From a virus: a DNA stretch of 20,169 nt. The notes beneath the pieces were generated by a model. That model worked only from the letters and a program-made list of their open reading frames with translations, searched no databases and was not told the origin of the DNA. The position numbers and the translations under genes are program-made. Shown here in pieces: positions 7,538-20,169 of this stretch (positions within the stretch are counted from its first letter, which is position 1; each line of letters opens with the position of its first letter). The stretch spans positions 1 through 20,169 of IMG/VR virus record IMGVR_UViG_3300042731_000591. The stretch is one strand, 5' to 3'.

Positions 7538-10500
7538 TTAGAATGCCTTGATCAAATACTTGGCACGATGGTATCTAGTAATTAGTGGAATGTCTTCAGT
7601 TGTTCTTGCCTCTGCAGTAACAGATACTGGAGTTGATCCAGTCAAGGTAAACAAACCATCGGTAAATCTAATGTTTGAAGCATTAGCACTGACAGTTCTA
7701 CGAACTACATTAATACCACTATCTGGTCCACAGTTTGGTGTTGCGTTTCCAGGTAGTGTAGCATCAGAAGAGGGAACAAAAACATTTTCCGTCACTTCAC
7801 CAAATACAATACCAAATTGTGCTAATCCCCAATTATCATTAGTCAATCCACCAGGAACATCATCATTATCACCAGCAGCTTCTGGTCTATCTTGCCTGAT
7901 AACAAGATACACACCATTCTTACGTGCATCATTTTCTGGATCTAGATCCAAAAGATAATTGTTATAACCAGCAGGACCAGTACCAGCAGTTGCAACTGCT
8001 TCTACAAGATTTTCTGTTGGTGTATCAATAGATGTTTTAAAATAGCACATTAAGTTTTCTTCTGGTGCATCACCCCCATTAGAACCATTTCCTTTAATTA
8101 CAGTGAAAATCAATTGTTCTGCTGCAGCAAGATTTAGTGGACCTATTTGTAGGAATCTACTATCTGCACCAGAGAATTCAATAAATCTAGTCGCTTTACC
8201 ATCAGATCTCTGTGTTGCTAATGGAAAATTAGATCCAGTTGATGATCTAACTTTAACACCAGGACTTGATGAATGCCAAATGTTATCTGTAATGAAAGTA
8301 TCAGGGAAATCTGGATTGTCTGTTGGCATTCCAGGAACTTCATAATATCTTCCCTTAGGACTAGTTAATTCTGATTCACCAACTTCGGTTGCAACAATTT
8401 CATATGCAATTACTTGAACAAATCCAGTACCTCCACCATTGCCACCACCTGATCCAGCACTACCACCTCCACCAACACTCAAAACAATCTGAGAGGAAAT
8501 ATCTTCATTAATATAATCATTTACAGCATATCCAATGGTCAATCCACCACCTGATCCACCGCCGCCACCTGTTGGGTTATCAACCGATCCTGAATATGAT
8601 ACAGAATATGTAACACTACCATTACCAGAATTACCAGAGGATTCAAATACACCACTTAAAATAGTTCTTGCAGCACATCTACCAGCATAACCACCAGAAC
8701 CAGAACCAGTGTTGACGTGACCAGCACCAGCAACACCGCCTTGACCGCCGCTTCCACCACCAGCAGGACCGAATCCACCGCCACCGCCTCCACCGCCACC
8801 AGCGGTGCAACCAGCAGTGCCACCAGCACCACCATTGCCAGGACCAATGGAATTTGCTTGATAAGTTCCTTGTGATGGTGGTTGTCCAGCTCCACCAGTC
8901 CAGCAGGGGTCAGTGATGCTACCACCGTTCCATCCACCACCTGATCCACCGCCGCCGCCACCGCCGCCAGCACCAAGCAACCAACCAGAACCAATTCTTA
9001 CACCTGATGAACCACCACCTGCTCCACCTGTTGCTCCATTTCCTCGGGCACCACGACCACCAGTACCACCATTAGAAGCACCACTACCTACACTATTATT
9101 AGTACTTTCAGAACTTTTATCAGAACCACCTCTATTATTAAATCCATTCCCACCTTTTGTGCCAATGGTATGGATGAATGTTCCGCCACCATTATATGTA
9201 CCCTGAATTCTTCTACCAGAACTAGCACTACCACCAACAGATCCACCGCCGCAACCAGAGTTTGCATTACTGTTTCCTCTGCCACCGCCACCACCAGAGA
9301 CGGAAATAGTAACAGAATCAACATTCCCATTTGAAGGAATTCCTGTGGAAGAGTCAAAACTACCAGAACTATAGAATGTATTGCTTGTGCTTCCACTGAT
9401 AATAGTTGTATTAAATCCACCATCACCACCAGCACCATTAGCAGCAGCACCTCCACTACCGCCACCAGGACCAGAAGTACCATTCTCTCCAGGAAGTTGA
9501 GTAATGTTGAATCTATCGTCATTCATAATGACTGCAGGAATATTTACAGATCCTCCATTTCCACCTGCACCTCCTGAGTTTCCAGATCTTCCCCCAGATC
9601 CACCTGTAGCAGAAATTGTCTGGTTGACACCATCAACAAGAAAAGAAATGTTTGAGTTACCACCACTGCCACCATTTCCCGTTGAACCACCACCACCGCC
9701 ACCACCAGCGTACAAAGTAAATTCGTAAGAAGAAGTTCTTGCTAAAGCGGGAATAGTATGTGATCCAGAAGTATATGATTGATCATATCTTACTTCACCA
9801 ACACCAACATTAACACCAGGAATTACTTTTCCACCAATTACTGTTGCATCATCAACAACGTAAACTCTTGGTTCTGGAGTATATGTTTGTGGTTCAAAGT
9901 ATCCTGCTGCTTCTCTAACTTTACCACCAGCAACAGATCCATTAAATGTACTTACAGCTCTGAATGTAGTTCCTGTAAGACCTTCTGCAACAACTTCATA
10001 TGATCCTTCTAATGCGGGATTACCAGTATCAAATATAATTACAGCATCACCTGCTGAGAATCCATGATCTGCTGCAGTTGTAGCATAAATGAATGATCCA
10101 TCTCCATTAACAGATATAAGATCAACTGCTGGTGCTTCTGTAATTCTGTATGCTATGCATCCTGCAGGAGTAGAGTCAACAGATTCACCAATTCCATCAG
10201 TATTTCCATATGTAGAAATTCTAGCATTTGATGGTCTAGATCCTAATAATCCATGAGCGTGACCTTTTGCTGTTCCATCACCAGCATCACCACCAGGATT
10301 AAATTGTTCTACAGCTCCTTTATACCTAACATAATTTGATGTATATGTATCTACACCACCAATAGGAGCATCAGTTTGTTCATCTGGTTGACTATGTAGA
10401 ATCTGGTGATCGTGAGTTGGTGGTTTATTGAAAATATAGTCCTGAATAGGTCCAACAACATATTTCTTTTCACCAATTAGATATGGTTCAATCTGAGTAG

Positions 10501-12103
10501 TAACTTCATCATATCCTGTCGTGATAACATCACTAATTTCAAAAAATTCTGCTGGAGTATTAATGGTATCTGTAGAGATATACCATCTACCACCAACATC
10601 ACCCATGTTCATGGTGATTCTATCTTCAACCAGTGGAGTACCAGAACCTTCTACACCCTCACCAAAACCAATTAATTTTCTATCTCTATAATCAGGTACT
10701 CTAAATTTACCAAGAATATATGGATAATCTGACAAGAAAAATGGTTTTCTTATTCTTACCGTTGGGTGACCAGTAGGGGGATTGCCAGTTTGTGGACTAA
10801 AAGCAGTAAAATCAACATTTAAATCACTAACTTGAGGATCTTCTCCTGGATCAATGCCAGAATCACCACCCTCGATGTCAACATTAGATTCATAATATGG
10901 TTCTTTTTGGATGCCAATAGGAATGAGAGGACCGTTACCAAAAGTAAAATCTATCGACTGAACCAAACTTTGTCCATTTGTCAAATATGCCTTGACATAT
11001 AATCTATAGATGTGCTTTTCTCCCTCAGGTGGTTGAGGACCAGAATATCCATTGTTAACCCAATCAGAACTAGTACCAACTGAGGTTTTTTGAACTTCAT
11101 TCTGTTCAAATATTACTCCACTAGGCCACACTCCATTTACTGGAATTGATGTAGTAGTTTTTGGAATATTTTTTACCCACCAATGCACAAATGATGTTTC
11201 TGTTTCACCAGTAGTTGGATTGTCAAACGTACCATTTGCAGACATATCCTCTAACAAAATTTCATATGAATCAATTACAGATCCTTCTGGAAGACCTATT
11301 AATTGACTCCAATCAACTGATAAGGTGTCATTTCTTGCTCCAGTATACGAATCATATCCAGTTGGATATCCAGTTCCAGTAAGTGGATCATATGTATTAG
11401 CATCAATTACTGGAACTGTACCTACATGAGCAATTGGCAAAGAAAGGAAGTCCCCACCGTCATTAATCAAGTTTGGTGATGATATCTGCCACGTTACTGT
11501 TCCACCCTCCGATTCATCATCTCCAGGATCATTACCACCACCTCCACCACCAATAGTATCAGTAACTAAAACACGATAAACATGTGTATCATTTTCTTGT
11601 GCTAATGCCTGATCAGCTTGGGTATAATTAAGTAAATATGCACCATCTTCGGAAAGAATGCCTCCTGTTGGCATACTTGCTAGAACTGGAAACGCAATAG
11701 ATGCATTGTTTGGAATTACTCTGTCATAATATACTGTTCCATCAACATTAGTTTTCTGTTCACCATAAACTTCAATGTAAAGATTACCACCATCAACAAA
11801 TGATCTATGAATTGTCCCTGGTGGACCAGGAAATACAAATGTCAATGAATTACGCTGAAGATCAGTAGTTCTTACATATTCATTTCCAATCGCTTGGTAT
11901 AATGTTGGATAATCTTTAATTTCATACTCTGCTCCATCACAATACAGATATCCTCTGTAGTCATACTCATGATCTTGAGTAAATACTGTATTTGTTTTAT
12001 CAGTATTAACACCAACAAGAGTAGGCACAATAGCACCCACACTAACGTAGGATCCTCCCTTATCGGAGTAAAAATTCGGTAACGTAGATCTATAAACTGC
12101 CAT
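7538..12103 (-). CDS. collar-domain tail adhesin with PEBP-fold insert and Gly-rich domain, 1521 aa
   Basis: This is a modular tail-fibre/adhesin-like protein. Residues 20-92 resemble the first half of a phage tail collar domain (VGAIVPT, YLYCDGAEYEIKDYPTLYQA). The second half appears only at 467-483 (FRVPDYRDRKLIGFGEG). In between sits a PEBP/YbhB-like domain (about 203-388) with FVHWWVKNIP and GYSGPQPPEGEKHIYRL. HxH motifs follow at 564-566 and 615-617. Residues about 799-1230 are extremely Gly-rich, like the polyglycine adhesin domains of T4-type gp38 proteins. A compact C-terminal region ends YHRAKYLIKAF. The ATG overlaps the preceding TGA by one base. It likely contacts the host surface; the exact receptor is unknown. 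The fibre assignment is firm in type, less so in detail. Confidence 0.85.
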   Translation of the reverse strand: MAVYRSTLPNFYSDKGGSYVSVGAIVPTLVGVNTDKTNTVFTQDHEYDYRGYLYCDGAEYEIKDYPTLYQAIGNEYVRTTDLQRNSLTFVFPGPPGTIHRSFVDGGNLYIEVYGEQKTNVDGTVYYDRVIPNNASIAFPVLASMPTGGILSEDGAYLLNYTQADQALAQENDTHVYRVLVTDTIGGGGGGNDPGDDESEGGTVTWQISSPNLINDGGDFLSLPIAHVGTVPVIDANTYDPLTGTGYPTGYDSYTGARNDTLSVDWSQLIGLPEGSVIDSYEILLEDMSANGTFDNPTTGETETSFVHWWVKNIPKTTTSIPVNGVWPSGVIFEQNEVQKTSVGTSSDWVNNGYSGPQPPEGEKHIYRLYVKAYLTNGQSLVQSIDFTFGNGPLIPIGIQKEPYYESNVDIEGGDSGIDPGEDPQVSDLNVDFTAFSPQTGNPPTGHPTVRIRKPFFLSDYPYILGKFRVPDYRDRKLIGFGEGVEGSGTPLVEDRITMNMGDVGGRWYISTDTINTPAEFFEISDVITTGYDEVTTQIEPYLIGEKKYVVGPIQDYIFNKPPTHDHQILHSQPDEQTDAPIGGVDTYTSNYVRYKGAVEQFNPGGDAGDGTAKGHAHGLLGSRPSNARISTYGNTDGIGESVDSTPAGCIAYRITEAPAVDLISVNGDGSFIYATTAADHGFSAGDAVIIFDTGNPALEGSYEVVAEGLTGTTFRAVSTFNGSVAGGKVREAAGYFEPQTYTPEPRVYVVDDATVIGGKVIPGVNVGVGEVRYDQSYTSGSHTIPALARTSSYEFTLYAGGGGGGGSTGNGGSGGNSNISFLVDGVNQTISATGGSGGRSGNSGGAGGNGGSVNIPAVIMNDDRFNITQLPGENGTSGPGGGSGGAAANGAGGDGGFNTTIISGSTSNTFYSSGSFDSSTGIPSNGNVDSVTISVSGGGGGRGNSNANSGCGGGSVGGSASSGRRIQGTYNGGGTFIHTIGTKGGNGFNNRGGSDKSSESTNNSVGSGASNGGTGGRGARGNGATGGAGGGSSGVRIGSGWLLGAGGGGGGGGSGGGWNGGSITDPCWTGGAGQPPSQGTYQANSIGPGNGGAGGTAGCTAGGGGGGGGGFGPAGGGSGGQGGVAGAGHVNTGSGSGGYAGRCAARTILSGVFESSGNSGNGSVTYSVSYSGSVDNPTGGGGGSGGGLTIGYAVNDYINEDISSQIVLSVGGGGSAGSGGGNGGGTGFVQVIAYEIVATEVGESELTSPKGRYYEVPGMPTDNPDFPDTFITDNIWHSSSPGVKVRSSTGSNFPLATQRSDGKATRFIEFSGADSRFLQIGPLNLAAAEQLIFTVIKGNGSNGGDAPEENLMCYFKTSIDTPTENLVEAVATAGTGPAGYNNYLLDLDPENDARKNGVYLVIRQDRPEAAGDNDDVPGGLTNDNWGLAQFGIVFGEVTENVFVPSSDATLPGNATPNCGPDSGINVVRRTVSANASNIRFTDGLFTLTGSTPVSVTAEARTTEDIPLITRYHRAKYLIKAF
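8425..9715 (-). repeat. low-complexity Gly-codon tract (polyglycine adhesin domain)
   Basis: About 1.3 kb of the 1521-residue gene consists largely of GGT/GGA/GGC glycine codons in irregular runs such as AGGGGGGGG and GGAGGGSSG, separated by short Ser/Asn/Thr stretches and a few hydrophobic loops. On the plus strand it reads as CCACCACCGCC-type sequence. There is no exact long period, so it is a degenerate low-complexity tract. Such tracts are prone to recombination and could allow exchange of loop sequences between adhesins. Confidence 0.85.
10940..11497 (-). other. PEBP/YbhB-like domain inserted in the adhesin
   Basis: Residues 203-388 of the 1521-residue protein follow the phosphatidylethanolamine-binding-protein family from end to end. 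They show an N-terminal ISSPNLINDGGDFLSLPIAH, then VDWSQLIGLPEGSVIDSYEI, LLEDMSANGTF in place of YDPDAP, FVHWWVKNIP (304-314), and NGYSGPQPPEGEKHIYRL (351-368). The conserved anion-pocket residues appear to be kept as D286, H307 and H364. E. coli YbhB has the corresponding WWHWVVVNLP and APPKGETHRY segments. Confidence 0.8.
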
Positions 12104-13467
12104 CAGATTTTAATTAGATATTCTGTGATGATGTATGGCTGAATGTATTTATCCGCCTTCTTGGAGGTATTGATATCGATAGTAATTCTAGAAAGGAGAC
12201 GCCCCGCTGGTTGTGCAGTAGCAGCTCTCGTTTTTAATTGATAAGTATGTTCTTCATCAGCATTAAAATCTAATCTGTGTCTATGTGTACCATCATAACC
12301 AGTTTCTCCTGTTAACGTTGTAATATTGCTAACTCCTGCCATTCCAGTTTGATAGTTAGTATCATCAAAGTTTGTAAATGGTAAGTTTAATCCTCTTTCA
12401 GAAGTCCAGTTAGTCAACTCATCTGAATTTTTATCAGGGATTGAGATTCCATTTGCACCAGCAACACACAAAGTAAAAATCTCTAGTGTACATATACATC
12501 TTTGCTCATATGTTGAATCATAGTCAATTCTTCCAAACCTTTCCCCAGAACACTCATTTCCTTCACCATGATTATTTGCATCACCAGTTTTAGTAATACA
12601 CCATTCTTTGTTATCTACTTCTGGACATAATCCATCATCAGGCCATAAGCAATATCCAGATGATCCAATGAAATTAGAACATACATCATTAAAACATGCA
12701 CCATACTGTTCACAATACGATGACGGTCCTGTGAAGAATCTACCACCTGTTTTTCTACCACTAGTAATAATACTAGTCATTGCCCAGTAACATAAATCTT
12801 GTCTAGTATTTTCCCACCATTGACAAACATTTAGAGAACTAGGAACTTTTGCAAAGTTAGAAGCAAATGAACTAAAATCTGCATTATTTTTTGCTCTTTG
12901 TCTTGCTCTAGTAGTTGTAGATCTATGCATGTGTGGTTGAAATGCATTTTGTGGAACATCGATACTTTCAGTGTATGCTCCAGTGCTCACAGTAAATGCT
13001 GGTTCTCCTCTCAACTGCAATGTTTGTGGAGGAATGTAGAATGCTCCTGTATATGACAACTCATAAGGACTTTCTACGTTTTGAATAACATCTAATCCAA
13101 CACCAGCTTTAGGAATCGTATCATCCTGAGCAGTTGTTACAAATAGATCGTTGTATCTACCAATGTTTGATGACGTTGTAGCACGAATGTGCTTGTTTCT
13201 TAAATCAGGTAACTGTATCTGATTATTAGATAATGCTTGACCATCCTTAATATACTTACAGTTACCACCTGTTCCAAGAACTTCTGCTAAAAGAGGATAT
13301 TCCTCAGCAAAAAGAATTCTTCCATCGCAACGTAAATATCCAGCGGGTATTAGTGCCTTATTAAGTTCACTGGCAGGATCATCAGAGGTTATTTCTACAG
13401 GAAAAGAAATAATCATGCCAGTGAGCGAACCCATTTTCGCTTTTTCTTTGTTATAAAATACTGCCAT
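12103..13467 (-). CDS. collar-domain short-fibre-like protein with Cys-rich insert, 454 aa
   Basis: Residues 14-98 fit a phage tail collar domain (LIPAGYLRCDGRILFAEEYP, then IQLPDLRNKHIRA). HxH motifs occur at 179-181 (PHMH) and 395-397 (HRH), as in T4 gp12-type short tail fibres, where such histidines bind a metal ion on the trimer axis. Between them lies an unusual Cys-rich stretch (residues 215-334) with 12 cysteines, many aromatic residues and segments such as SSGYCLWPDDGLCPEVDN. The C-terminus ends EYLIKI, a variant of the ending of its two neighbours. The gene starts one base after the preceding stop and overlaps the next start by one base. It is probably a receptor-contacting fibre component. 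The N-terminal assignment is secure, while the Cys-rich part is unassigned. Confidence 0.85.
   Translation of the reverse strand: MAVFYNKEKAKMGSLTGMIISFPVEITSDDPASELNKALIPAGYLRCDGRILFAEEYPLLAEVLGTGGNCKYIKDGQALSNNQIQLPDLRNKHIRATTSSNIGRYNDLFVTTAQDDTIPKAGVGLDVIQNVESPYELSYTGAFYIPPQTLQLRGEPAFTVSTGAYTESIDVPQNAFQPHMHRSTTTRARQRAKNNADFSSFASNFAKVPSSLNVCQWWENTRQDLCYWAMTSIITSGRKTGGRFFTGPSSYCEQYGACFNDVCSNFIGSSGYCLWPDDGLCPEVDNKEWCITKTGDANNHGEGNECSGERFGRIDYDSTYEQRCICTLEIFTLCVAGANGISIPDKNSDELTNWTSERGLNLPFTNFDDTNYQTGMAGVSNITTLTGETGYDGTHRHRLDFNADEEHTYQLKTRAATAQPAGRLLSRITIDINTSKKADKYIQPYIITEYLIKI
12466..12825 (-). other. Cys-rich module within the 454-aa fibre protein
   Basis: This 120-residue segment contains 12 cysteines at uneven spacing (for example C252, C258, C263, C273, C281, C290), two WW/CYW aromatic clusters and many Gly/Asn/Asp turns. 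It looks like a small disulphide-stabilised or metal-binding domain. The neighbouring paralogues lack it, and the rest of this protein has only two cysteines (C47 and C70). Confidence 0.7.
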
Positions 13468-14893: not shown

Positions 14894-17800
14894 TCAGACC
14901 TCCTTGAGCCACCAACCCTGTACTGCGGATGAAACAATTTCTCCGTTGGAATCAGTTCCACCAAGATATACAAGAGTAAATCCAGCATTTGGAGTTTGAA
15001 CAATCAACTCACCAGCAGAATATGGTGTAGTTCCACCAATTCCAATTGTGGTTCCAGTTCCATCACCTTGAACTCTTGTACCAACTCCTTGTGCTCTCAT
15101 AATCAGTGAAGTATCATAAGTTAGATTTCCACCAACTTCAATAACAGAAATTGTATCTCCACTTTGAGGATTTGCTGGTAAGTAAAGAATTAAATTATCA
15201 CCTGGGTTAACATTTGCGAAATACTGAACATTAGGTGTCAAGAACTTAGCAGATTCATCAGATCCACTTGAAACATATCTAGCATGTCTACCACCAGAAG
15301 AAGTGTAGAAATTAGTCAGACCGAATGCATCAATAGATTGATCACGGTTAATTGTAAAGTCGTTAGCACCATTAGGACCTAGGTTCGATAGAATTAATTG
15401 TCCTGTCTTTGGTGGAGTTTCAGCAGCACTACCACGAATAGTTAGATTTGTACCAATTGTGCCTTCACCAAATGTATTAATTTCAAATGTTACATCACAA
15501 GAATGATTAAATACATCTTCTGGACATGAGGTTGAATAGAGTTTGATGGCTCCTCTACCAACAACACCAGCATCAAAGTAAATAGAACCAGAGTGATCTG
15601 CGTGTCCATCATCATTATCAACTGCAAGAATCTGAGTTTTGTTCACAGAATCTTTAACGCTGATACCACCACCTGTTAGAAGAAGGTTACTGTTAAGTTT
15701 CAGATCACCAGTTCTGTAAGGAACATCACCAATTTGAATTGCTTCATTCATGAAGATGGAGTGATACTTACCACGAAGACCACCTCTGATGAAGAAGAGT
15801 TCATCTGATAGATTACCACGAACATCGTGGAATCTCAACCATCCAGAATAATCAAGTTTTTGTTGTACGATTTGACCTTGATCAATGATAATTGATACAA
15901 AATCACCAGAGGGTTCACTGCTAGTATCTCTCGTTCTTGTTTGAATATCTACCAGAGCAGAAGATTCTGGGTGCTTGAGGATTCTTACTACGGTTGTATT
16001 TGTTGCAGTATAATCAGAGAGTCCTCTTGCCGTAGTTCCTTCTTGTCCCTGTTGACATCTGATCGTATTTGATGTTGTGTCTACAGCAACAATTTTCATA
16101 ATCTCCCAGATATTGCCACTTAGTCCATTAGCAGAAACATCAGCAGTTCTGCCGACAATAATTAAATCATCAACCGCAAATTGCCCAGTTCCAATACCAA
16201 GAGATACTAGTTGTAGATATGCTCCAGGAAGAGCACCAGTCGAAGCAGTAGCAGTTAGTGTTGTAGATGGTCCACCAGCGTTAATTGTGCCAGGATCAAC
16301 CCAATAAGAATATAATCTAATATCAGATAGAACATTAGTATATCTTCCAGTGGTCTCTGAAGGGGTTTGAACATCGGGATAAACTCTCGCTACATCCAAG
16401 CGTCTAAACTGATTTCCAAGTTCTAATTCAGAAGTACAAGTATCAAAATACAGTGAATTTTGATCCTTTCCATTAGTAATAACAAACTCTTCATTCTTAT
16501 ATACTACGAACCGTACATTAGTAATTAAAGAACTTACCTCAATTCTAGTACCAAGTACAACCGTGTTGTTATCAGGACTGTATCTAATCTCTACAATTCT
16601 AGTTCTTGCATAGACAAATGCATTGTAATTGAATAATGGATCAAGCTTAACTGCATCACCAATCTCCAATTTAGCAATTTCAGCATCAGAAATTCCTGTT
16701 ATGAATTCAGTTGCAACTCCCAGATATGTGCCATTAATAGTTCCTTCAATTGTTGCTTTAATAGTGGTTTCACAACCGCCATTTACAGACAACCCATTGT
16801 TAATGATAACGTCACCTTCGATGATTGTGTCACCAGTTACAGAGTCAATTTCAAATACATTTGTTCCAGTATCACAGTCACTAGAAATAGTAAACTTCTT
16901 AGATACAAGATCTACTGGAGTAATGACCTTAAATACCTCACCTTTATCATAGACAATTTCTTCATCACCAACTGGTTCTAAAGTATTCTCTCTACTAATA
17001 ATTACATAATCCTCTTCTTTAATTGTTCCACCAAATTCCGCAAGGTAAATTGTTTCAATAATACCATTATCATCAACTGGTTGAGTGATCCAGGTAGAAT
17101 CAAACTGTACATTGACTTTATAGATTGGTGTGCTGTCAGGGTGATTATTTTTTACACCAGTGAAAGTACCAAATGGTTCTCTTTCAACAACAAGGTAATA
17201 TGGACCAACGTTAATTCTAGGAGTAGAAACAACTCTTACAAATTCAACGTGAGATGCGGTATTTACAGCACTAGCAGATAAGTATTTTACTCTAGTGATA
17301 CCATAATTATCATACGTATAACCACTTATATCGTTCTGCCACAACTGGAATTGAACATTAGCTTGCTGAGCAGCAACTGGAATATCAATACTAAATCTAG
17401 CATAGTTAATTGACTGATCAATCCAATCAATGAATGTTGGGAATGTCGATGGATCGCTATCATTCCGATCATCAGGACAGATATATCCAATACTGGTCCA
17501 ACTTTGTCCATTATCAGTTGAATAACGAAGTTGTAATCCTTCTCCTGGTGCATCAGGAAGTTCACCACCATTAAAATCATTACCAACATGAATCTCAAAC
17601 TCCATTCTGGAGAGGGGACCAGTATTTGCATAGAATGATGCGTCTACTGCAGCGAATGTACAGAATCTTGGACCATAGAAAGAACCAAATTGTTCTGTGT
17701 GGAAGTGGAGATAATTTTGTCCTGCTGCAAATCCATCATTTGGAGTTGTTCCACCTCCTGAAGCACTAATATCAACACCACCACCAAACTCCTGAATGAA

Positions 17801-20169
17801 TGCATATGCTGTTGCATCAGTACCAACAGCAAAATCACGGAAATTTGTAACAGAGACAACATCAGATGTACCCTCTGGAGAATCAATTAATAGATAATCA
17901 TTTTCTCTAAAGTGTGGGTTGCCATCAGCATCAACTGGTGGATTACTGATTGGTAGATAATATTGGTCATCAGTTAGTGCTGGTAGATCTTGTGGTGGAA
18001 TTTGTGGGTTACCACCAATATCATTTATTCCATTCTGGTAAGGAATACCACCCCAGTTTCCTGAACCAGCAGTATCCAGTTCACAATATTCTGGATCTGC
18101 AGGTGTCTTTCTATCAACTGTAATGATGTCAACATTTTGATTAAAGATATTGTTGCCTAGTTCACCGCTAGGATGACTAATTGCATCAGAACCAGATCTA
18201 GATCTATATGCAGTAAACTGGAACGATGCAAATCCACCACAAAGTGTGATATTGGAGTTAAATGTTGCGGATGCATCAACCTCTAGTTTGTTTCTAACTC
18301 TTGTAGTACCACCCTGACCAGCAATTGTGATCGTTGAAGCATTAGTAGCAAAGTTTAGAATGTTTGTATTACTATTTCCAGCGAAGAAGTTGACTGTACC
18401 AGCAGTAGATGATAGATCTACAGAGTCATCCAATCCTCTTCTAGTTCCTAATTGGAAGTCACCAGCAACTTTGAAGGACTTAGTAGCAACTTGTGTGAAT
18501 GATAGTGATTCGTTGTTATTATAACCACCACCAATAGTTACCTTCGAGATATTTGAATTTGGAGTGTCAGGTGTAGTACCAATGTTAATTACACTGTTCT
18601 CTGACTTATTGCCAATCTCAATGTGCTGCTCAGCAACTGCTTCATTGCCAATCTCGATGTTTTGTACCCAACCAGCGATCTTAAGACCATTTTGATCTGC
18701 ACCACCAACAAAGGTGTCATTCATCAAGAAGCTAAACTGACCAGTTGTAATATCAGTTCTGATTTCAGCAGTGTTAGAACCACCGCCACCATGGACTTCA
18801 ATATCCTCTTGGAATCTAGCATCGCCAGTGAATCTTGACTCACCGTCAACAACCAGTGCTCTGTTTAGTTCAGTGTTTGTTACGTTGATACCAACACGAC
18901 CACCATTGGTAGTAGCAACTCTTAGTGTTGCCTCATTATCTGGGGTTGCACTATCACCACCGACGAGTAGTGCATTGTCTTCAGCAACTTCAGTTCTGTT
19001 ACCATAAACAGTGTGATCAAGATAATCAGAAATTGTCTTACCGCTAATGAATGCAGTACCAACAACGTCAAGGTTTGCACGTGGTTCAGTGAATGGATCA
19101 ACAAATCCAGTTTTCCATGCCTCATGCTCAGATCTTGCTACAGTGTTGACACCTAACTTATAGTTGCCAATATTGTTAGTATCTGTTCTTAAAGTTTCAG
19201 CTCCAAGAACACCAACTTCCTTCCATGAAGAGTTGGAAAACTCCATTCTAACATCTGGATTGACAGCAACCTCAGATGCCCAGAGACGTGGGTTATCATT
19301 AGCAACGTTTCCTCTATTCTCAATAAGAGCGATCTGACAACTAGTTGCTTCTGGATCAAATCCATTAGCAATTACTTGCCACTTACCATTGAATCCAGAA
19401 TCACTGAAGTTGCTAATCCTAATAAACGAACCATTAGTGACGCCAACCTGCTTGTTCTTAAGGTTATTACCCCAGTTGATTACAATGACAGTGCTGCCAT
19501 TCATCACCAGATTGTCAATATTTGCAGCAGGAATAACTTGGAAGAAGTTAGCATAGATCCATCCAAGAGATCCAGAAATTCCAACCTCATTACCCTTAAG
19601 AAGAATATCTCCTGCTAATGGAGCTCCAGCATTACCATACTGTACTGCCTGAAGAGGATCAAGAGCAGTTCCTAGTCCAGTGTTATAAAGTGAACTCTGG
19701 TTTGGAGTGTAGTTAGATCCCTCAGATCCAACAACATGGTTCTGAATCTTGTATCCTTGTGCTGCACCATTTGAACCACGTGGGTTGAATTGGAATACAG
19801 AAGCAGCAACTCTGTTTCTAGCGATAATAATGTCGCCAAATGTATCCTGATTGAGGAATTGCTGTGTCTTGTCTAGAGATCCATCATCACCATCGCTAGG
19901 TGATACGTTGGAGATTACACTCAGAGCATAATCTCTTACTCTACCAAGAACATTGATGGTGACAGGTGAGTTAAATGTGCTCGTCTGATCCTGTTGATCA
20001 CCACCATTAACAGTGATGTACTCATTGAATGTTACAGGAGTGTCAAAGGTGGTGACGAGATCACCTACATCTTCCGTATCATCATCAGAATCAACCAACT
20101 GTGCAGATTCTAGGAATTCTTCTTCACCAGTGATAGCATCAATCTTACGGTTACCGATGTAAAGGTCAC
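14894..20169 (-). CDS. giant tail-fibre/virion structural protein, partial at 5' end (at least 1757 aa)
   Basis: The frame is open through the right edge: before the TTG at 20098, where an ORF finder would begin, 23 further in-frame codons read DLYIGNRKIDAITGEEEFLE plus SAQ. The true start is therefore outside the window. The protein is made of repeated beta-rich stretches (for example FNSPVTINVLG, NFATNASTITIAGQGGTTRV, EGDVIINNGLSVNGG) typical of long phage fibres. A region at about nucleotides 17330-17700 looks like a separate beta-sandwich (LQLRYSTDNGQSWTSIGY). The C-terminal part has TPNVQYFANVNPGDNLILYL and ends GWWLKEV. I take it as a long-tail-fibre or comparable virion protein; the beta-rich fibre nature is clear, the exact position on the virion is not. 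It runs straight into the collar-protein series. Confidence 0.85.
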   Translation of the reverse strand, partial: DLYIGNRKIDAITGEEEFLESAQLVDSDDDTEDVGDLVTTFDTPVTFNEYITVNGGDQQDQTSTFNSPVTINVLGRVRDYALSVISNVSPSDGDDGSLDKTQQFLNQDTFGDIIIARNRVAASVFQFNPRGSNGAAQGYKIQNHVVGSEGSNYTPNQSSLYNTGLGTALDPLQAVQYGNAGAPLAGDILLKGNEVGISGSLGWIYANFFQVIPAANIDNLVMNGSTVIVINWGNNLKNKQVGVTNGSFIRISNFSDSGFNGKWQVIANGFDPEATSCQIALIENRGNVANDNPRLWASEVAVNPDVRMEFSNSSWKEVGVLGAETLRTDTNNIGNYKLGVNTVARSEHEAWKTGFVDPFTEPRANLDVVGTAFISGKTISDYLDHTVYGNRTEVAEDNALLVGGDSATPDNEATLRVATTNGGRVGINVTNTELNRALVVDGESRFTGDARFQEDIEVHGGGGSNTAEIRTDITTGQFSFLMNDTFVGGADQNGLKIAGWVQNIEIGNEAVAEQHIEIGNKSENSVINIGTTPDTPNSNISKVTIGGGYNNNESLSFTQVATKSFKVAGDFQLGTRRGLDDSVDLSSTAGTVNFFAGNSNTNILNFATNASTITIAGQGGTTRVRNKLEVDASATFNSNITLCGGFASFQFTAYRSRSGSDAISHPSGELGNNIFNQNVDIITVDRKTPADPEYCELDTAGSGNWGGIPYQNGINDIGGNPQIPPQDLPALTDDQYYLPISNPPVDADGNPHFRENDYLLIDSPEGTSDVVSVTNFRDFAVGTDATAYAFIQEFGGGVDISASGGGTTPNDGFAAGQNYLHFHTEQFGSFYGPRFCTFAAVDASFYANTGPLSRMEFEIHVGNDFNGGELPDAPGEGLQLRYSTDNGQSWTSIGYICPDDRNDSDPSTFPTFIDWIDQSINYARFSIDIPVAAQQANVQFQLWQNDISGYTYDNYGITRVKYLSASAVNTASHVEFVRVVSTPRINVGPYYLVVEREPFGTFTGVKNNHPDSTPIYKVNVQFDSTWITQPVDDNGIIETIYLAEFGGTIKEEDYVIISRENTLEPVGDEEIVYDKGEVFKVITPVDLVSKKFTISSDCDTGTNVFEIDSVTGDTIIEGDVIINNGLSVNGGCETTIKATIEGTINGTYLGVATEFITGISDAEIAKLEIGDAVKLDPLFNYNAFVYARTRIVEIRYSPDNNTVVLGTRIEVSSLITNVRFVVYKNEEFVITNGKDQNSLYFDTCTSELELGNQFRRLDVARVYPDVQTPSETTGRYTNVLSDIRLYSYWVDPGTINAGGPSTTLTATASTGALPGAYLQLVSLGIGTGQFAVDDLIIVGRTADVSANGLSGNIWEIMKIVAVDTTSNTIRCQQGQEGTTARGLSDYTATNTTVVRILKHPESSALVDIQTRTRDTSSEPSGDFVSIIIDQGQIVQQKLDYSGWLRFHDVRGNLSDELFFIRGGLRGKYHSIFMNEAIQIGDVPYRTGDLKLNSNLLLTGGGISVKDSVNKTQILAVDNDDGHADHSGSIYFDAGVVGRGAIKLYSTSCPEDVFNHSCDVTFEINTFGEGTIGTNLTIRGSAAETPPKTGQLILSNLGPNGANDFTINRDQSIDAFGLTNFYTSSGGRHARYVSSGSDESAKFLTPNVQYFANVNPGDNLILYLPANPQSGDTISVIEVGGNLTYDTSLIMRAQGVGTRVQGDGTGTTIGIGGTTPYSAGELIVQTPNAGFTLVYLGGTDSNGEIVSSAVQGWWLKEV

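Follow-up and report, generated by a model that had tools for sequence, protein, structure and literature searches.

In the window, the whole stretch of 20,169 nucleotides analysed here (IMG/VR virus record IMGVR_UViG_3300042731_000591), a 1521-residue fibre protein begins a phage collar domain near its N-terminus and closes it only several hundred residues later, which raises the question of what occupies the gap and what the occupant may do. For marine cyanophages, few receptors have been identified. The protein is encoded by the following open reading frame:

7538..12103, minus strand: gp12-type fibre/adhesin of 1521 aa that carries all modules described below (ORF call and homology to S-RSM4 SRSM4_211 and S-WAM2 gp221)

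The sequence and the structural model together identified this protein as a tail adhesin of the gp12 type from a cyanophage that is T4-like and Kyanoviridae-like. The gene order around the fibre was that of cyanomyovirus fibre cassettes, and a nearby helicase gene showed 88% identity to its counterpart in Synechococcus phage ACG-2014h (host WH7803) and 85% identity to the S-WAM2 and S-H9-1 homologues. The host of this marine T4-like phage is probably Synechococcus, an assignment kept at that strength because it is fibres that determine host range. As the family has no cultured member, we infer rather than observe both the host and the incorporation of the PEBP-bearing fibre into virions. The genes psbA and psbD were not found in the 18 related contigs searched, which are fragments. 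Two phage contigs with this fibre, L060 (NZDA01000001.1) and L061 (PAPD01000060.1), belong to bins whose MAG labels are Euryarchaeota ARS1134 and Gammaproteobacteria SP171, respectively; as these are phage contigs within archaeal and gammaproteobacterial MAGs, the bins are probably contaminated by cyanophage DNA. Elsewhere in the window, a 1734-aa fibre (14894-20098, minus strand) matched Reelin subrepeat B at residues 829-937 (PF21471, E 1.3e-8, above the cut-off), next to a weak BNR/Asp-box match, and a collar protein (12106-13467, minus strand) gave a haem-containing dehydratase match that was below the cut-off (E 9e-4) and is probably due to chance.

The two ends of the collar domain were located as follows:

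11828..12055, minus strand: N-terminal half of the collar, residues 17-92, with the Pfam Collar match at residues 50-76 (PF07484, E 1.9e-7, profile positions 13-39 of 57)
10655..10711, minus strand: C-terminal part of the collar, GKFRVPDYRDRKLIGFGEG, residues 465-483 (in S-H9-1 and ACG-2014h it follows the first half without a break)

The Collar match scored 31.4 bits against a cut-off of 24 and covered only profile positions 13-39, and the closing segment FRVPDYRDRK was found at residues 467-476, approximately 375-390 residues after the first half. In the insertion-free fibres of S-H9-1, ACG-2014h and the uncultivated L203, one Collar match ran on to profile position 55-56 through LPDYR or VPDYR. 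As the profile stops at position 39 here and continues to 55-56 in these insertion-free relatives, the collar is really interrupted. The first-pass annotation of this DNA, made from the letters alone, had proposed such a split and had named a collar continuous without the insert as the finding that would speak against it; the match ending at residue 76 and the closing segment appearing only at 467-476 bear the proposal out.

The same annotation had assigned the inserted material to a PEBP/YbhB-like domain. The corresponding regions are as follows:

11498..11548, minus strand: Gly/Asp-rich linker, residues 186-202 (sequence; low pLDDT)
10928..11497, minus strand: PEBP/YbhB-fold domain, residues 203-392 (PF01161 E 4.3e-10; YbhB Z 12.7; HHalign probability 98%)

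The PF01161 match spanned residues 261-375 with 40.5 bits against a Pfam cut-off of 24 (E 1.4e-13 in the genome-level search), and all 17 aligned homologues also matched this family. Using phmmer against the PDB, the best matches were YbhB (1fjj/1vi3, E 0.0025-0.0028) and YbcL (1fux, E 0.0087), with alignments centred on FVHWWVKNIP and GYSGPQPPEGEKHIYRL. When separate phage and bacterial PEBP alignments were compared by HHalign, the probability was 98% and the E-value 1.5e-13. Residues 1-660 were modelled as a monomer with AlphaFold2, using 17 family members alone as input and neither templates nor cellular PEBPs. The pLDDT of the model was 65-87 over most of residues 200-390, with lower values in the loops; the collar and everything past approximately residue 412 remained below 50. 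A Foldseek search of this model against the PDB gave four significant matches, all of which were PEBPs (YbcL, Rv2140c, YbhB and CT736). Upon superposition by VIA-align, residues 204-390 overlaid on E. coli YbhB with a Z-score of 12.7 over 136 residues at 2.6 Å, and the first non-PEBP chain had a Z-score of 6.9; mitoribosome chains were also among the structural matches. In place of the missing PF01161 or YbhB match at residues 203-388 that the first-pass annotation had set as grounds for dropping its assignment, significant profile and structural matches were thus found. Very low E-values to YbhB obtained with one profile were discarded, since that profile already contained a YbhB fragment. 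A mixed alignment (A5) was dropped before folding as it misplaced the first strand of the cellular PEBPs, and the long matches from a BFVD search with the 660-residue model were spurious, the model being largely disordered.

We also considered whether errors in sequencing or assembly, or motifs that match by chance, could have produced this arrangement, and found nothing in favour of it. The PEBP-in-collar architecture was present in open frames under purifying selection in dozens of independently assembled contigs; because independent contigs share it, this reading is refuted, and we regard its probability as negligible. In particular, one pair compared over 190 codons gave the PEBP module an omega of about 0.37. 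Sequence and model show that the phage PEBP is a real, full-length, divergent PEBP-fold domain under purifying selection, and its identity and the splitting of the collar are established.

The PEBP is not alone in the gap, which the first-pass annotation had described as filled by it: the PEBP is present as claimed, but a second domain, which we call domain A, houses it. Domain A consists of two segments:

11564..11827, minus strand: first part of domain A, residues 93-180, a small beta domain within the collar (AlphaFold2 model of the PEBP-free L183; occurs with and without PEBP)
10724..10786, minus strand: returning segment with HPTVRIRKPF, about residues 440-460, which completes domain A (in the L183 model, strand 183-187 lies past the PEBP insertion point)

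In PEBP-free homologues, the string HPxxRIxKxF...DYPYIxGKFRVPDYR comes directly after domain A, and in the window it comes after the PEBP. The AlphaFold2 model of L183 had a pLDDT of mostly 82-92 over its domain A (model residues 70-140), and the last strand of that domain lay within the returning segment. The position of the returning segment in the PEBP-free fibres and the location of the last strand in the L183 model therefore indicate a nested order, in which the collar encloses domain A and domain A encloses the PEBP. Comparison of the domain A model with the PDB gave a best Z-score of 5.0 (Pbp11, phi92 endosialidase), the neighbours at 5 or less including barrel regions of the phi92 and K1F endosialidases, and Foldseek gave no significant match for the L183 domain A model; with neighbours at this level, no fold is named for domain A.

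To place this arrangement among related viruses, we scanned IMG/VR with degenerate forms of the PEBP, which recovered fibres of the same architecture, and with the collar-closing segment, which recovered 76 loci, 75 of which were classed by the distance from CDG to FRVPDYR. No insert was present in 24 of these 75 viral fibres (gap of 29-49 aa). In 15, PEBP was absent but domain A or a similarly sized domain was present (160-166 aa in those that were measured), and 12 of these gave a match to the domain A profile. Domain A together with PEBP occurred in 29 (368-409 aa), and both together with a further insert in seven (522-533 aa). The further insert resembled PA14 (E 0.0013) or a NedA-like galactose-binding domain (E 0.0017), below the Pfam cut-offs, and this sub-threshold similarity points to carbohydrate binding at the collar-loop site. 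It lay inside domain A in L149/L007 (residues about 150-290), L171/L012, L174-L176, L179 and L180, being weakly PA14-like in one lineage and weakly similar to the NedA galactose-binding domain in another. Loci L018-L059 were rejected as fibres, since each is a single bacterial-type YbhB gene.

In a tree of the collar C-terminal region, the PEBP-bearing fibres grouped together, which would fit a PEBP insert that arose once, although several deep branches are open; for the PA14-like insert, the same tree required a minimum of two changes, so that the PA14-like/NedA-like insert was perhaps gained twice independently. Additionally, gp221 of the cultured Synechococcus phage S-WAM2 (L003 7869-11678) carried a different, unrelated insert of ~115 aa in the same collar loop. 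Recurrent insertion at this one collar site, by domain A, domain A with PEBP, the PA14-like domain and the S-WAM2 insert, is supported by these comparisons, and the existence of a nested-insertion platform in the collar loop is well supported.

The search was extended to cultured phages. A tblastn search of 50,697 phage records with three PEBP modules did not find a fused PEBP; the matches were free YbhB-like genes only, mostly enterobacterial, with one faecal phage record among them, and one such match was an annotated transduced bio-locus. No description of a PEBP associated with phage fibres or cyanophages was found in the library of open-licence papers searched. By sequence and model, the fibre-inserted PEBP is confined to one set of uncultivated relatives. 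The first-pass annotation knew of no earlier account of the combination, and this agrees with our searches of both the literature and the cultured-phage records: a PEBP in the collar loop of a cyanophage fibre is a combination that we found in no cultured phage and in no paper.

PEBP/YbhB proteins are an ancient group of small-molecule binders, and whether the inserted domain could bind a ligand depends on its cavity. In Arabidopsis FT, the rim triad of the PEBP cavity is formed by D71, H87 and H118 (PMC8793217). The corresponding residues in the window are as follows:

11246..11248, minus strand: D286, rim Asp of the PEBP cavity (D71 of Arabidopsis FT, D70 of human PEBP1; HHalign; last residue of model strand 277-286)
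11183..11185, minus strand: H307, first rim His (H87 of FT, H86 of PEBP1), variable in the family (alignment)
11012..11014, minus strand: H364, second rim His (H118), present in 26 of 30 members (alignment)

All three had been singled out by the first-pass annotation as probable anion-pocket residues and stand at the positions it gave; the window PEBP thus keeps the whole rim triad, plus Y366. A MAFFT alignment (A7) had placed D286 at the second Asp of DPDAP; this was rejected in favour of the first (rim) Asp, the pairing given by HHalign and by where strand 3 of the model ends. Among 30 non-redundant phage PEBPs, the triad was intact in only eight: the Asp position held D in 21 and N in nine, the first His position H in 11 (otherwise N, L, Q, I or C), and the second His position H in 26 and N in four. 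The second Asp (D73) and the Arg (R119) of the charged quintet were present in none of the 30, being replaced by S, A, T or C and by I, T, K, L, H or V, respectively (S288 and I365 in the window). We also observed that the cellular C-terminal segment was missing, since alignment A7 ended at DFTFGNG with no equivalent of VGFxLHFNTLxKAxLxGLYKR. The positions of the GYxGPQP motif were invariant apart from one Pro in one member, with Y353, G355 and Q357 invariant throughout, and position 307 was at the 82nd percentile of variability. The broken triad in most members, the absent D73, R119 and C-terminal segment and the variable position 307 indicate that, judged from the sequences, the phage PEBP pocket is divergent.

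Conserved D/D/H/H/R residues of the fold have been argued to form a catalytic centre (PMC8793217), and the PEBP could on that basis have an enzymatic role with a small surface molecule as its substrate, in line with the general proposal for YbhB proteins. The window keeps the D, H and H of this set, but the second Asp and the Arg are absent from 30 of 30 phage members and the D-H-H part is incomplete in 22 of 30, which makes an enzymatic role very improbable.

The remainder of the fibre offers other candidates for contact with the host:

10184..10654, minus strand: gp12-type region past the collar, residues 484-640, with HxH at 564-566 and 615-617 (nearly invariant columns in alignment A3)
8414..9712, minus strand: Gly-rich module, residues 798-1230 (composition scan; against the nearest orthologue, no other long module has so high a dN or so low an identity)

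T4 gp12 binds Zn via His445/His447 (PMC3004832), and metal binding by the nearly invariant H564xH566 and H615xH617 pairs is predicted by likeness to gp12 only. Every complete domain A fibre had a Gly-rich module and the insertion-free fibres of the 75-locus set lacked one; S-RSM4, whose collar is continuous, nevertheless has Gly-rich stretches. Versus the nearest orthologue, dN was 0.111 in the Gly-rich module, the highest of the long modules, and 0.040 in the PEBP. The Gly-rich module is probably the primary recognition element and is a more conventional receptor-binding candidate than the PEBP. The Gly-rich gp38 adhesins of T-even phages are a parallel that we take as a lead only.

The most likely function of the PEBP, to which we give about an even chance, is that of an accessory, diversifying module making a secondary contact with a host-surface ligand. 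The collar/domain A loop would act as an insertion platform from which additional beta-domains are displayed at the surface of the fibre, presumably a trimer, and the PEBP would hang from flexible Gly-rich linkers with its pocket uncovered, making an accessory contact while primary recognition would probably fall to the Gly-rich module. Its specificity may have drifted, as suggested by the rim His position being among the more variable sites within a nearly invariant GYxGPQP scaffold. Since the collar and the following region were below pLDDT 50 in the monomer, the exposure of the PEBP on the fibre surface stays a proposal. The fuller form of this reading, in which a host-recognition PEBP is displayed from a hot-spot collar loop of nested beta-domains, with or without the PA14-like domain, and has a pocket diversified to read different cell-surface molecules, is favoured only tentatively, at somewhat below an even chance.

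The first-pass annotation had suggested that a fibre with this domain could recognise a lipid head group, a phosphorylated glycan or another anionic surface ligand. As a primary receptor site, the PEBP would then bind a phospholipid head group, a phosphorylated glycan or a small anion via D286, H307 and H364, which agrees with the retention of this triad and of Y366 in the window and with the structural match Rv2140c having been solved with sulphate (PDB title). Such binding is not established, and our results weaken it: the triad is intact in eight of 30 members, the D73-R119 pair and the C-terminal segment are absent, and primary recognition is better assigned to the Gly-rich module as a candidate. 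To our knowledge, phosphatidylethanolamine is absent from cyanobacteria. The reported LPS of marine Synechococcus WH8102 and CC9311 is devoid of lipid A phosphate, Kdo and heptose (PMC4515613). These two properties of the host envelope render a phosphatidylethanolamine or LPS-phosphate receptor unlikely, and we consider anion binding at a primary site unlikely as a whole. Compared with phosphatidylethanolamine or phosphorylated LPS, a glycan that is neutral or carries uronic acid, or some other molecule of the cell surface, would be the more likely ligand.

With the triad intact in so few members, the pocket may no longer function and the domain may serve as a spacer. The main rival to host recognition is that the PEBP is a structural spacer or protein-protein module, a stable beta-sandwich with a vestigial pocket that makes the fibre wider or more stable or provides a docking site for a baseplate neighbour. 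In its favour, most members have degraded pocket residues, none of the 30 retains the D73-R119 pair, and the C-terminal segment is missing; there is also a precedent in the mitochondrial ribosomal clade, one of two narrow clades of the same fold in which these residues are disrupted (PMC8793217). However, domain A fibres without PEBP at 15 loci indicate that the PEBP is not needed for fibre folding, rim position 307 is more variable than most of the domain, and D, H, H and Y are all retained in the window. We regard the spacer as a possible but doubtful explanation.

The PEBP, a module of ~190 aa whose fold is known and whose pocket can be predicted, provides a defined, expressible object for work on cyanophage receptors. 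The collar loop acts as a nested insertion platform, and its variants form a natural comparison set of 15 fibres without PEBP, 29 with PEBP and seven with a further insert. Should the domain prove to be structural only, the PEBP fold would once more have given up its pocket as part of a large assembly.

Compared with known systems, the inserted domain was most similar to E. coli YbhB and YbcL of the PF01161 superfamily, with which it shares the fold, the HW..NIP and GYxGPxPPxGxxHxY motifs and the rim residues D286, H307, H364 and Y366. Whereas the cellular proteins are free and small, the phage PEBP sits in a giant structural protein; it also lacks DPDAPT, has longer N-terminal loops, has lost the C-terminal segment and does not conserve the triad across its clade. 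T4 gp12 and the Pfam Collar family share the Collar profile match, the YCDG...PDYR elements and the HxH motifs past the collar, although the 1521-aa fibre is about three times longer than gp12, has an interrupted collar and carries added Gly-rich and C-terminal modules. The fibre/collar (short tail fibre) proteins of cyanophages S-RSM4 (SRSM4_211), S-WAM2 (gp221), S-CAM4, S-H9-1 and ACG-2014h are homologous, and S-WAM2 and S-RSM4 also share the gp12-type region with its HxH motifs and Gly-rich stretches; in contrast to the window fibre, all five are without PEBP, and the collar is continuous in S-RSM4, S-CAM4, S-H9-1 and ACG-2014h. The PEBP-fold proteins of the mitochondrial ribosome are similar in that the fold was recruited to a large assembly and its pocket residues were disrupted (PMC8793217), but they are ribosomal and eukaryotic and, beyond the fold, bear no relation to phage fibres.
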